Shown here piece after piece: positions 9,471 to 13,030 of a stretch of DNA of 29,527 nt. Below the pieces are notes generated by a model. The model made no database searches. It was not told the origin of the DNA and was given only the letters and a program-made list of their open reading frames with translations. The stretch comes from a virus, in the IMG/VR virus record IMGVR_UViG_3300010885_026593, positions 1 through 29,527 of that record, one strand, 5' to 3'. Position 1 is the first letter of the stretch. Each line of letters begins with the position of its first letter. Both the position numbers and the translations under genes were made by a program.

Positions 9471-9572
9471 ATGGCTTGTAGAACAGGGTGTCCAACCCAA
9501 GACCACGCTGATTATGGCGAGTGTTTATTTGCTGCTCGTATTAATATAGATAAAACTAGTTTGAGGCCTTAA
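9471..9572 (+). CDS. 33-residue cysteine peptide
   Basis: The encoded peptide has Cys at positions 3, 7 and 18 plus His12, and contains CRTGCPTQDHADYGEC. The C-x3-C, His, Cys pattern could bind a metal ion, though it is one residue short of an obvious CCHC site unless Asp11 or Asp14 takes part. I recall similar CPTQDHASYAEC-type peptides in actinobacterial phages, which makes it more than a chance ORF. It begins two bases after the previous stop and ends in a TAATG overlap with the head-closure gene, fitting snugly into the operon. Function unknown. Confidence 0.65.
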   Translation: MACRTGCPTQDHADYGECLFAARINIDKTSLRP

Positions 9573-10309
9573 TGAGTAGAGCGTACACCCCAAGCGGGCG
9601 GTTTGACACAGATTTTGAAACCAATGAAATCCATGACGCTATTACTAAAGACCTTACTAATCCAGTAGGTACTACGGTTCAATGGTTTGTATGGAACTCT
9701 TCAGCTTCTAATGTTGACCCAATTTATGACGTTGGATCAAACTATTTAACTAGTACTACGGGCGCAAGCATTAATACCACAATGTCTGGAACTGTTGGAA
9801 CCACGGCTATTACTGTTGTTTCTACTGCTGGAGTAACTGTAGATATGGCAGTTAACGGCTCAGGTATTGCTAAGGGTACTCTAGTTAAAAGTATCTCTGG
9901 AACAACAATAACGCTGACTTTACCTAACGTCAACAACATAGCTGCAGCTACAGCTGTAAACTTTACAAGTGATGGTCGTCAATGGAAAACCCCTGTAGAT
10001 GTTCCTGCTATTCGTGCTGTTGTTAAACAAAGTCAAACTAACCTTATTGAAGAAGGTTTTTACAATGCTGACCGTTTGCATTTAACAATTGATAAAGAAA
10101 TACTTTCTTCTTTAATTCCAGGTGTTTTAGATGATCCAGACCCATTAAATCGTGACCGTATTGTTTGGAAGGGTCAAGTATACCGACCTCTTATGAATCA
10201 ATTATTAGGTATTATTTCTGAAAGATTTGCTATTATTAGTTTTGAATGTCAACAAATTATGCCTGAAGAACTGGTTAATGATCCACAGTTCCAGGCTTAT
10301 GCTAACTAG
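9572..10309 (+). CDS. Probable head-closure (head-tail stopper) protein
   Basis: The 245-residue protein starts MSRAYTPSGRFDTDFETNE and has a core from about residue 132 (WKTPVDVPAIRAVVKQSQ; DRIVWKGQVYRPLMNQ; FECQQIMPEELV). The pattern of a short beta protein with a D.I.W.G..Y.P segment, in a gene upstream of the tail terminator and sheath, suggests a head-closure or stopper role at the neck. Residues 64-132 are an inserted copy of the recurring beta module (ITVVSTAGVTVDMAVNGSG). Removing it leaves about 175 residues, a typical size for this class. The functional call is inference from position. Confidence 0.55.
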   Translation: MSRAYTPSGRFDTDFETNEIHDAITKDLTNPVGTTVQWFVWNSSASNVDPIYDVGSNYLTSTTGASINTTMSGTVGTTAITVVSTAGVTVDMAVNGSGIAKGTLVKSISGTTITLTLPNVNNIAAATAVNFTSDGRQWKTPVDVPAIRAVVKQSQTNLIEEGFYNADRLHLTIDKEILSSLIPGVLDDPDPLNRDRIVWKGQVYRPLMNQLLGIISERFAIISFECQQIMPEELVNDPQFQAYAN

Positions 10310-10318
10310 GAAAATACT

Positions 10319-10630
10319 ATGACAGAAAAATGGCAGAAAAAAGAAGGACAGAATAAAAAGGGTGGCTTAAATGAAAAAGGCCGTAAGTCTTACGAGTCCT
10401 CACACCCTGGCTCCGATCTAAAAGCTCCAGTTAAGTCTGGAGACAATCCTCGTCGTGCATCTTTCCTTGCTCGCATGGGAAATGCACCTGGCCCAGAACG
10501 TAAGCCAAATGGTGAGCCAACACGTTTGCTTCTTTCTCTGCAAGCTTGGGGAGCATCTTCTAAGGCTGACGCTAAGAGCAAAGCAGCCGCTATCTCTAAG
10601 CGCAATGCCGCAAAGAAGGGGAAAAAATAA
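10319..10630 (+). CDS. Basic protein, DUF6321-like
   Basis: The 103-residue, Lys/Arg/Gly-rich protein contains KWQKKEGQNKKGGLNEKGR, LKAPVKSGDNPRRASFLARM and KPNGEPTRLLLSLQAWG, ending in a lysine-rich tail. I recognise this layout from small proteins in environmental phages, which I recall as DUF6321. The function is unknown. Its charge suggests nucleic acid contact, perhaps with packaged DNA. It heads a row of seven similar small basic genes and overlaps the next one by TAATG. Confidence 0.75.
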   Translation: MTEKWQKKEGQNKKGGLNEKGRKSYESSHPGSDLKAPVKSGDNPRRASFLARMGNAPGPERKPNGEPTRLLLSLQAWGASSKADAKSKAAAISKRNAAKKGKK

Positions 10631-10830
10631 TGGCTGAGAAGAAAAAACCCGCAAAGCCTAAATCCAAGGTCAATGAGGCTGGTAATTACACTAAACCAGC
10701 ATTACGTGCATCTTTGTTTAAAAAAATTAAGGCTGGTACAAAGGGCGGCGACCCAGGTGAATGGTCAGCCCGTAAAGCCCAACTGCTTGCGTCAGAATAT
10801 AAAAAAGCTGGCGGAGGATACAAAGACTAA
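10630..10830 (+). CDS. Small basic protein with WSARKAQLLA motif
   Basis: This 66-residue protein has a Lys/Pro-rich start and a conserved-looking body: NEAGNYTKPALRASLFKKIK, GTKGGDPGEWSARKAQLLA and YKKAGGGYKD. Proteins of this pattern recur, in my recollection, in aquatic phages and large viruses, often beside the type of protein encoded next here. Function unknown. It starts and ends by TAATG overlaps, so it is translated together with its neighbours. Confidence 0.75.
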   Translation: MAEKKKPAKPKSKVNEAGNYTKPALRASLFKKIKAGTKGGDPGEWSARKAQLLASEYKKAGGGYKD

Positions 10831-11072
10831 TGGCTAAGGAAAAATCACAAAAGTCTTTAGACAAATGGTCTGATGAAAAATGGCGTACTTCAGACGGTAA
10901 GGAATCTAAAGGTAAGAAACGATACCTTCCAGATAAGGCTTGGGATTCCCTTAGTGATAAAGAAAAAATTGCTACTAATAAGGCTAAAGCTGCTGGTAAT
11001 AAAAAAGGTAAGCAATACGTAGCACAGCCTAAAAAAATAGCAAATAAGACTAAAAGTTACCGAAAGGGTTAA
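10830..11072 (+). CDS. Small basic protein, DUF5872-like
   Basis: The 80-residue protein has LDKWSDEKWRTSDGK, KKRYLPDKAWDSLS, and KKGKQYVAQPKKIANKTKSY. This order (W..EKW.T.DGK, RYLPDKAW, GKQ...QPKKIA.KT) matches a small family I recall as DUF5872, known from phages, nucleocytoplasmic viruses and bacteria, with no established role. It is strongly basic with no membrane segment. The neighbouring WSARKAQLLA protein is a frequent companion in my recollection. Confidence 0.75.
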   Translation: MAKEKSQKSLDKWSDEKWRTSDGKESKGKKRYLPDKAWDSLSDKEKIATNKAKAAGNKKGKQYVAQPKKIANKTKSYRKG

Positions 11073-11074
11073 AC

Positions 11075-11311
11075 ATGGCTGCTAAAAAGAAAGAAAGTCC
11101 TGCTACACTTAAAGTGTCAGGTAAAGTTCACCGTGTCTATAAAGACAAAAAAGGTGACGTTGTAGTTGACCATGCTGGCACTAAAAAAGAAAATGGCAAA
11201 TACGACAAAATTGATTTAACCAAAAAAGCTGGTGCCAAGACAGTTAAAGCTGGTGTAAAAGCCACCAAAGATTGGCATAAAAATAACCCTCATAAAAAGA
11301 TAGGTAAATAG
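11075..11311 (+). CDS. Small lysine-rich protein of unknown function
   Basis: The 78-residue product is about one quarter lysine. A short beta-like segment (ATLKVSGKVHRVYKDKKGDV) is followed by a lysine-rich region ending in DWHKNNPHKKIGK. I do not recognise the family. It sits three bases after the previous stop and two bases before the next start, in the middle of the basic-protein row, and is probably co-translated with them. Confidence 0.7.
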   Translation: MAAKKKESPATLKVSGKVHRVYKDKKGDVVVDHAGTKKENGKYDKIDLTKKAGAKTVKAGVKATKDWHKNNPHKKIGK

Positions 11312-11312
11312 T

Positions 11313-11486
11313 ATGTGCGCATTATGTGGATGTGGAATGAAAAAGGGTCAAGCTGGATACGGCAAAGGTAAAGGCGCTGCAAAGAAGCTATCTCCAAAGC
11401 AAAGCAAAATTGCTGCAAAAGCTGGAAACCCAAAGAAAATTGATGCTGCTGATTTAGCCGCATTACGAAAGACCAAGAAAAAGTAA
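11313..11486 (+). CDS. 57-residue CxxCxC basic peptide (first of three)
   Basis: The peptide begins MCALCGCGMKKGQAGYGKGK and continues with lysine- and alanine-rich sequence to LRKTKKK. Cys at 2, 5 and 7 gives a CxxCxC motif right at the N terminus. Two further genes downstream start the same way, which supports all three as real. A metal-binding knuckle is possible, but a fourth ligand is not evident. It ends in a TAATG overlap with the next gene. Confidence 0.65.
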   Translation: MCALCGCGMKKGQAGYGKGKGAAKKLSPKQSKIAAKAGNPKKIDAADLAALRKTKKK

Positions 11487-11599
11487 TGTGTGCAACATGT
11501 GGCTGTGGACAGCCTAAAAATAAGCATGGCGAAAAAACTCTTGCCGCTGCTAATAAAAAGTTTGCTAAGAAAAAACCAGCAAAGAAGGTGAAAAAATAA
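11486..11599 (+). CDS. 37-residue CxxCxC basic peptide (second of three)
   Basis: The peptide starts MCATCGCGQPKNKHGEK and ends in a tail of lysines (FAKKKPAKKVKK). The N-terminal MCA.CGCG is nearly identical to that of the preceding gene, pointing to gene duplication. His14 could act as a fourth metal ligand. The gene is linked to both neighbours by TAATG overlaps. Confidence 0.65.
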   Translation: MCATCGCGQPKNKHGEKTLAAANKKFAKKKPAKKVKK

Positions 11600-11811
11600 T
11601 GTGTAAAAAGTGTGGTAAAGGAAAGTGCGCTTGTGGTCCAATGAAGGCTTCAGATAAGAAGCAAGATGCTAAGACCATGAAGGGTATGACTCCTGCACAG
11701 AAGGCTAAGTTCGCTAAGGAAGATAAGAAAATGGACAAGAAGCCTATGTCTCGCAAGGAAGATACCAAAAAAGATAACGCCCTTGCTAAGAAAATTAAGG
11801 GTAAAAAGTAG
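11599..11811 (+). CDS. 70-residue cysteine- and lysine-rich protein (third of three)
   Basis: The protein starts MCKKCGKGKCACGPMK, with Cys at 2, 5, 10 and 12, so this copy has four cysteines and could hold a zinc ion by itself. The rest is a charged, helical Lys/Asp/Met-rich tail with MTPAQKAKFAKEDKK and ends KKIKGKK. It is the last gene of the basic row and is followed by a terminator region. Function unknown; high charge suggests nucleic acid or capsid-interior contact. Confidence 0.75.
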   Translation: MCKKCGKGKCACGPMKASDKKQDAKTMKGMTPAQKAKFAKEDKKMDKKPMSRKEDTKKDNALAKKIKGKK

Positions 11812-11854: not shown

Positions 11855-11872
11855 AGCCCTTGCAAAGGGGCT
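11855..11872 (+). terminator. Rho-independent-type terminator after the basic-protein genes
   Basis: The stem AGCCCTT/AAGGGGCT (7 bp, one G-T pair) with a GCAA tetraloop runs straight into TTTTTCATTT. It follows the last small basic gene by about 45 bases and closes that transcription unit. The tail resembles the one after the 999-1020 hairpin (TTTTCATTT). Confidence 0.85.
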
Positions 11873-11883
11873 TTTTCATTTAC

Positions 11884-11961: not shown

Positions 11962-12087
11962 ATGGCAAGCGATAGAATCTCTTCAGGTTCCGTCACTGAC
12001 TTTTACGACGGCGCTGCTGGCGATGAGTCCTTAGGTAATATGGTGTGGTTTCTTATGGGTATAGCTCGTAGTGGGGGCTTTCGTTGA
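11962..12087 (+). CDS. 41-residue ORF at the head of the neck/tail operon
   Basis: The ORF begins at ATG 11962 with AAGGAG at 11948-11953, an excellent ribosome binding site eight bases upstream. It encodes MASDRISSGSVTDFYDGAAG followed by a short hydrophobic stretch (NMVWFLMGIA). I do not recognise it. Its stop overlaps the TTG start of the next gene (TTGA), so it may serve mainly to bring ribosomes to that weak start, or be a small structural peptide. Confidence 0.55.
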   Translation: MASDRISSGSVTDFYDGAAGDESLGNMVWFLMGIARSGGFR

Positions 12088-12401
12088 ACGAACAACCTGA
12101 TGCTATTCTTGGAGCAGTTAAAAACCAAGAACATGAACTCACTTCTCTATTAAAAAGTACGGCTACTCAACACGGCTGGGACGATCACATTGTATCCAAT
12201 CTTACCGCTAAGGTTGTTGGCGACCAAATTCATGCTATATACCCAGAACATTTACGGGATTCTGTATTCAAACTTGAGTATGGACATGAGGCTAACCCAC
12301 CTAGACCTGCATTTAGAGACTTTAATGTTAAATCCGAAAGCCTTATCGATCAAGCATTAGGTGAAGGTTTTATTAACGAATTAATGCGGGTGATGTCATA
12401 A
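12084..12401 (+). CDS. Probable neck/tail-completion protein, HK97-gp10-like
   Basis: The 105-residue protein starts at a TTG that overlaps the preceding TGA. It has a helical N-terminal half (AILGAVKNQEHELTSLLKS) and a segment YPEHLRDSVFKLEYGHE followed by NPPRPAFRDF. A V..LEYG....PPRP..R pattern is characteristic, as I recall it, of HK97 gp10-type tail-completion proteins. It lies directly before the tail terminator candidate and the sheath, where such genes belong. The unusual start codon and weak ribosome binding site imply coupling to the 41-residue ORF. Confidence 0.6.
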   Translation: MNEQPDAILGAVKNQEHELTSLLKSTATQHGWDDHIVSNLTAKVVGDQIHAIYPEHLRDSVFKLEYGHEANPPRPAFRDFNVKSESLIDQALGEGFINELMRVMS

Positions 12402-13030
12402 TGACATTTGTAATTGCTGAAGATGCCGCCCTTAAAACCTACCTTACTGGCATGACGGTATCAGATGAAAAAAACGCTTCCCGTTCTGTTAAAGTCTGGT
12501 TTGGGTTTCCTGATGTAGAAATCCGTGCCCAAGAATTTCCTTTTGTAACCATAGAACTTGTCAATGTTCGCAACGCTATTGAGCGCCAAACCTCTGGTTT
12601 TATCTACGACCAGGATTTTTCAGGTACGGTAACCCCTTCAGGTAATTTGTATTATGGATATGAAGTACCTATTGCTTATGATTTGTTGTATCAAATTAGG
12701 TCTTATGCCAGACATCCACGTCATGACCGCGCTATAATTTTTCAGTTAAGCCAAAAATTTCCTGGTATGCGTGGGCACCTCCCAGTCCCTAACGACCTAG
12801 GCACTTCCACTGCTTATCGCCATATGTTCCTTGAAAGCACATTAAAAAGCGATAGGGCCGAGGGTGACAATGGAAATAAACGTCTTCTACAAAATATCTA
12901 CACAATAAGAGTTGTTAGCGAAATGACTCCTATGCCTAATTCAGTTACACCTGGACCAAAACCAACATCCGTAAAAATTAATAAAGAAGTTACTTCATCA
13001 GTTCCTTCTACAATGACAATTGTTAACTAG
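12401..13030 (+). CDS. Probable tail terminator / neck protein
   Basis: The 209-residue product has FPFVTIELVNVRNAIERQ near residue 46, then YYGYEVPIAYDLLYQIRSYA and HDRAIIFQLSQKFPGMRGH. A mixed alpha/beta protein with a central strand of the Y.L.YQI...A..., coded just before the sheath, fits tail terminators, which cap the tube and sheath and join them to the head. The last 25 residues are Pro/Ser/Thr-rich and probably disordered. It starts by TAATG overlap with the previous gene. The role is inferred from position and general pattern. Confidence 0.6.
   Translation: MTFVIAEDAALKTYLTGMTVSDEKNASRSVKVWFGFPDVEIRAQEFPFVTIELVNVRNAIERQTSGFIYDQDFSGTVTPSGNLYYGYEVPIAYDLLYQIRSYARHPRHDRAIIFQLSQKFPGMRGHLPVPNDLGTSTAYRHMFLESTLKSDRAEGDNGNKRLLQNIYTIRVVSEMTPMPNSVTPGPKPTSVKINKEVTSSVPSTMTIVN

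Follow-up and report, generated by a model that had tools for sequence, protein, structure and literature searches.

The internal head proteins of phage T4, IPI-III and Alt, are packed with the DNA and injected, and this way of working makes them the functional comparison for the proteins described here, with which we found no sequence relation. In another virus group, the chloroviruses, basic proteins are bound to the packaged DNA (PMC3281028). Those of PBCV-1, A278L, A282L, A284L and A523R, are abundant, particle-borne and DNA associated, and two of them (A278L and A282L) contain a "basic adaptor domain" (PMC3281028). The proteins of our cassette are likewise basic, but they have no Pfam family in common with those of PBCV-1, which is an algal virus with an internal membrane and not a tailed phage. 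According to the same paper, evidence was lacking for any large contribution of basic proteins to the neutralisation of phage double-stranded DNA (PMC3281028), which counts against a neutralising role of our proteins. Of the two Pfam families that correspond to parts of the cassette, DUF5872 has been found in phages and in an algal large DNA virus. In the literature that we searched, no paper mentions DUF6321 and DUF5872 appears only in a gene list, so that an initial, sequence-only reading of this DNA was right to say that these families have no described role.

The window, i.e., the whole stretch of 29,527 nucleotides analysed (IMG/VR record IMGVR_UViG_3300010885_026593), is from a freshwater virus of bacteria and contains a row of seven tiny Lys-rich genes on the plus strand. 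They are ORF1 (10319..10630, 103 aa), ORF2 (10630..10830, 66 aa), ORF3 (10830..11072, 80 aa), ORF4 (11075..11311, 78 aa), ORF5 (11313..11486, 57 aa), ORF6 (11486..11599, 37 aa) and ORF7 (11599..11811, 70 aa), successively spaced by -1, -1, +2, +1, -1 and -1 nt. Their products have pI values of 10.0-10.5, a Lys content of 17-34% and a net charge of +15.5 to +29.7 per 100 residues. This charge is extreme: the 24 other genes of the window tested do not exceed 6.4% Lys and +1.8, indicating that the basicity of the row is not due to chance. Silent changes far outnumber replacement changes between all seven ORFs and their relatives (dN 0.039 and dS 1.30 for ORF1 and dN 0.026 and dS 0.78 for ORF4, both against contig L013; dN 0.064 and dS 0.52 for ORF5, dN 0.12 and dS 1.21 for ORF6, and pN 0.03 and pS 0.75 for ORF7), showing that all are real, translated genes under purifying selection. 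Together with the charge, this excess rules out chance or misread ORFs as the source of the row. Coordinates, spacing, charge, Lys content and selection thus all agree with the initial description of seven tiny, highly basic and tightly joined genes.

The high Lys content might be a by-product of overlapping translation signals, in which A/G-rich gene ends double as ribosome-binding sites. Lys does make up 56% of the last six residues, compared with 27% inside the proteins. Nevertheless, the interiors are Lys rich as well, and the Lys fraction of the tails is 0.60 in genes without a close following gene and 0.54 in genes with one. This tail comparison refutes ribosome-binding sites as the main cause of the Lys content, and the explanation as a whole is scarcely credible.

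The cassette is closed on its 3' side by a terminator-like hairpin and T run (11855..11877, plus strand), composed of a hairpin at 11855-11872 followed by TTTTC. This agrees with the terminator proposed at that place, although such sites are in no clear excess in the region (5 found compared with a mean of 3.1 in shuffled sequences). The upstream neighbour (9572..10309, plus strand, 245 aa) had been called a head-closure gene, a label that our searches did not confirm: its only PHROG matches are weak and to unnamed and virion-structural families. The downstream neighbour (12401..13030, plus strand, 209 aa) served as the synteny anchor. Two other short genes were observed around the cassette. 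A conserved 33-aa gene, MACRTGCPTQDH...INIDKTSLRP (9471-9572), just upstream of the 245-aa gene, is another tiny Cys-bearing gene, with similar genes in L009, L010, L012 and L013. After the terminator and before the next tail gene comes a 41-aa acidic gene (11962-12087); many relatives have a different short gene in its place, often with a hydrophobic, basic C terminus.

ORF1 belongs to Pfam family DUF6321 (PF19846; phrog_4689). It matches positions 2-72 of the 72-residue profile with an E value of 3.4e-22 and 79.3 bits, over the curated cutoff of 28.5, confirming the family named in the sequence-only reading. It is a full-domain member of this family, which includes the cyanophage gp114/T4-GC119 proteins, and its C-terminal extension beyond the domain is conserved in viral relatives. 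ORF1 is a stand-alone gene, whereas in cyanomyoviruses DUF6321 ends a long chain of modules.

ORF2 and ORF3 matched phrog_17747 (E value of 1.5e-33) and phrog_14910 (1.5e-35), respectively, and neither of them singly matched DUF5872 (PF19197) at an E value of 1. In other phages the two modules are fused in the same order, in five loci found by blast (L331, L334, L344, L362 and L278) and in Hodr. The fused relatives in L331 and L344 score 17-18 bits against DUF5872, with a cutoff of 27.5 (E value of 0.0095 for L344), and among 57 the best DUF5872 E value of a fused relative is 1.1e-5, in an alignment that covers most of the profile. Those of L334 and L278 align over 114-125 residues with L394, a canonical DUF5872 member (65.9 bits) from the same MAG as L334, with E values of 1e-6 and 2e-5 in a small set. 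The two-part architecture of DUF5872 is present, with a first half that is helical and closes with a Gly-rich turn and with a KW..W second half, and the ORF2-ORF3 order is that of the family. As differences, the canonical member has a Cys-bearing segment where the ORF3-type second half has KKRYLP, and DUF5872 is one fused protein in other phages but two separate genes in the window. These comparisons suggest that ORF2 and ORF3 correspond to the first and second halves of a split DUF5872-type protein. As the curated cutoff is not reached, we speak of corresponding halves and not of members. The DUF5872-like assignment of the sequence-only reading therefore stands for the two genes taken together and falls for either alone. 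An ORF3 homologue is located within 3 kb of an ORF2 homologue in 76 and directly downstream in 48 of the best 80 of at least 598 viral loci, proportions that are valid for those 80 only.

AlphaFold models of the fused DUF5872-like protein (pLDDT 88) and of DUF6321 (pLDDT 81) were confident and mainly helical. A fold search of both models against the PDB gave no match with an E value below 4 and no DNA-binding protein, PDB sequence searches were empty or returned chance matches, and ORF2 to ORF7 had no match in Pfam. Histone, HU, MC1 or another catalogued DNA-binding family was rejected on these grounds. In a viral structure library, the models retrieved phage relatives and weaker unnamed entries. 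One of the relatives is within a 1022-aa phage protein named ParB/Sulfiredoxin (BFVD A0A6J5PCY7), part of which matches the ORF2-type module; this fusion hints at a DNA-related role.

Single cyanomyovirus polypeptides combine the second half of DUF5872 and its first half with a CWxGY module and DUF6321. By blast, Syn9 gp114 and S-SM1_115 have the first half together with DUF6321, proteins of ACG-2014f and S-SSM7 have DUF6321 and the second half, and profiles detected all four modules in S-SCSM1_29. For Syn9 gp114, the second half was recognised by eye and went into the building of the profile, so that its presence there does not count as independent evidence. PHROG profiles agree on the order CWxGY then DUF6321. 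In phages that are unrelated to each other (MEP402, Hodr, CRP-9, HMO-2011, S-CBP4, S-RIP2, HTVC119P and L344), module genes have terminase, scaffold, capsid or head-tail adaptor genes in their neighbourhood, and the multi-module proteins of cyanophages often adjoin terminase genes. Linked by such fusions, DUF6321 and DUF5872 are modules of one kit.

The site of the cassette in the structural region is conserved. We collected as relatives 75 viral metagenomic contigs encoding the 209-aa downstream neighbour, and the 245-aa upstream neighbour was found by tblastn in 51 of them. The MCxxCGC cluster, to which ORF7-type proteins also belong, is represented by small basic genes at the site in 67 of the 75 loci, a CWxGY gene is found there in 38, an AAGRPYPNLVDN gene in 14, the ORF4 family in 11, a PFKS gene in 5, DUF6321 in 2 (one of them, L008, a contig identical to the window) and DUF6496 in 1, counts that are not independent events because many of the contigs are near copies. 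ORF4, a basic protein of no known family, is shared with relatives at the same site. Among 29 distinct complete intervals, 25 have three to five basic genes, four being the commonest number, and that of the window is the richest, with seven basic genes and a summed charge of +99. The other members of the site, different in sequence and similar in charge, are swapped in and out. No isolate phages of the window's lineage were found; the nearest sheath proteins, at ~32%, are in Streptomyces phages, and the annotation of one of these, pSt2308, has no comparable run of tiny genes. The 47-aa CWxGY gene had no tblastn match in isolate phage records, and the CWxGY profile found the module inside cyanophage proteins. 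In L013, the same variable site also holds a gene beginning MRFVSLFAGVGGFDLGLEQAGH (at -1959 to -1228, counted from the tail gene), which by eye is DNA methyltransferase-like; the site may be a general insertion hot spot.

ORF5 and ORF6 start with MCALCGCG and MCATCGCG and ORF7 starts with MCKKCGKGKCACG; Lys makes up 32% of ORF6 and 34% of ORF7. No match to ORF6 was found by tblastn in 50,697 phage records. We identified 132 distinct MCxxC small proteins, nearly all of them MCxxCGC, with a mean of 30% Lys and a Cys past residue 20 in only 13, and the MCxxCGC pattern is present and conserved in ORF5- and ORF6-type proteins. Other members have an EF-hand-like tail (EF-hand_1 at 16.0 bits in a relative of ORF5, below the curated score of 25.4), of which ORF5 itself has a degenerate relative, devoid of the loop acids. 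The N terminus of HypB binds nickel, and the MCxxCGC N terminus of ORF5-7-type peptides presumably resembles that site. HypB has a GTPase domain, whereas ORF5 to ORF7 are 37-70 aa long, with Lys-rich tails and no Pfam match. The proteins might then be metal- or thiol-binding peptides in the first place, with Lys for solubility or localisation and with ORF5-7 binding Ni, Zn or Cu via MCxxCGC, as the constancy of the motif and the rarity of later Cys residues would suggest. However, ORF1 to ORF4 have no Cys and are left uncovered, and the likeness to HypB is a short motif, which makes this a very unlikely account of the row. The MCxxCGC peptides remain a second puzzle, metal- or thiol-related. 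Contig L396, from an Actinomycetales MAG and not of the window's lineage, has at 739-1887 a row in which an MCMKCGC gene stands between a DUF6321 gene and a fused DUF5872-like gene; this row ties the MC peptides to both DUF families.

Module proteins homologous to those of the cassette were detected in cyanophage virions. We used the published virion mass spectrometry of three cyanophages, S-SCSM1, S-CREM2 and S-SZBM1, and scanned 55 to 154 kb of S-CREM2 and 11 to 158 kb of S-SZBM1 for module proteins. S-SCSM1_29 is labelled a virion protein in its record, and this label appears to mark the detected set (45 proteins in the paper, 48 labels counted). ORF160 (7 peptides) and ORF137 (4 peptides) of S-CREM2 are listed in Table 3 of its virion proteome; ORF137 has DUF6321 at 40.8 bits and is largely acidic outside this tail. 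S-SZBM1_139, which has the CWxGY module, is in the virion list with 4 peptides. S-SZBM1_192 (165 aa, DUF6321), the smallest of the five module proteins and the closest in form to ORF1, is absent from the S-SZBM1 virion list, whereas its neighbours 190 and 195 were detected. Thus, four of the five were found in particles compared with ~0.92 expected (P ~0.004, which ignores the likelier detection of long proteins and of genes near structural genes). S-SM1_115 is annotated as hypothetical, while other S-SM1 proteins are called virion structural. Absence of module proteins from virions, as S-SZBM1_192 and S-SM1 alone would indicate, was overturned by the two further proteomes. The detection in cyanophages does not prove that the tiny forms are packed, because the detected proteins are long (297-517 aa) with other regions. 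The proposal of the initial reading that the row encodes virion proteins gained independent support from the homologues in cyanophage particles, with S-SZBM1_192 as the exception; DNA contact and injection, the other parts of that proposal, are suggested by charge and gene position.

Alternatively, the proteins might be assembly or packaging helpers, made late and bound to DNA, terminase or prohead, and not retained or present as traces in the mature particle. Such a role fits the recurrent position of module genes close to terminase, scaffold and portal genes and the missing S-SZBM1_192. It is at odds with the three DUF6321/DUF5872-module proteins and the CWxGY protein in the virion lists, unless they are contaminants, which CsCl preparations can carry according to the authors of the virion proteome. 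We regard the helper role as possible but unlikely.

A genome scan with ORF3 yielded 63 loci, 18 of which, all from Pelagibacteraceae, harbour a reversed ORF3-ORF2 fusion as a chromosomal gene (L363, L365-L369, L371-L379 and L381-L383, e.g., L373:4992-5408). This SAR11 gene is mostly found near DUF1365, CFA synthase, DUF3833, SDR and TspO genes, some of which are missing from short contigs, and in L367 a bacteriorhodopsin-family gene is ~4 kb away. SAR11 contigs also have separate ORF2-ORF3 pairs, in a context of phage-like genes. The singlet-oxygen RpoE regulon of Rhodobacter includes SDR and cyclopropane-fatty-acid genes (PMC7074977), and it is possible that the SAR11 fusion gene codes for a light or singlet-oxygen stress protein. 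By extension, the phage proteins might be nucleic-acid binders directed at the host, once injected or when expressed late, that would protect DNA, silence or take over host expression or counter stress, and the chromosomal version would be their stress-response relative. Nevertheless, the SAR11 operon is deduced from neighbours only, and the structural-region position and the virion detection fit packaging better. A host-acting role is thus distinctly improbable.

Our preferred reading, to which we give a probability of roughly 0.5, is that the cassette encodes modular, exchangeable polycationic particle proteins with a putative capacity to bind the packaged genome. The seven proteins are probably packed with the virus DNA. 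They would be made together with the products of the structural genes and, by prediction, travel in the particle of this phage. They would be located inside the head, where they would bind the packaged DNA and neutralise it in part, and they may enter the cell with it. The set is modular, with DUF6321 and the DUF5872 halves separate here, fused in some phages and chained in cyanophages, and members of differing sequence and similar charge replace each other at the site.

A broader and more doubtful proposal is that many tailed phages of aquatic habitats package their DNA with interchangeable basic mini-proteins, a chromatin-like set drawn from a shared kit (DUF6321, split DUF5872, CWxGY, DUF6496 and MCxxCGC), which would also occur in multi-module form in cyanophages and whose DUF5872-type modules would extend to an algal large DNA virus and the chromosomal SAR11 gene. 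If true, it would go against the view that the DNA of tailed phages is neutralised almost only by small cations. If the proteins coat the packaged DNA, models of head pressure and ejection would need a protein term. Hundreds of marine and freshwater viruses carry DUF6321 and DUF5872 even though both are without a described role, and their linkage in one kit, the correspondence of ORF2 and ORF3 to DUF5872 halves and the detection in virions would give both families a testable one. In SAR11, the location of the host homologue next to light-response-type genes would offer a clue to its function.
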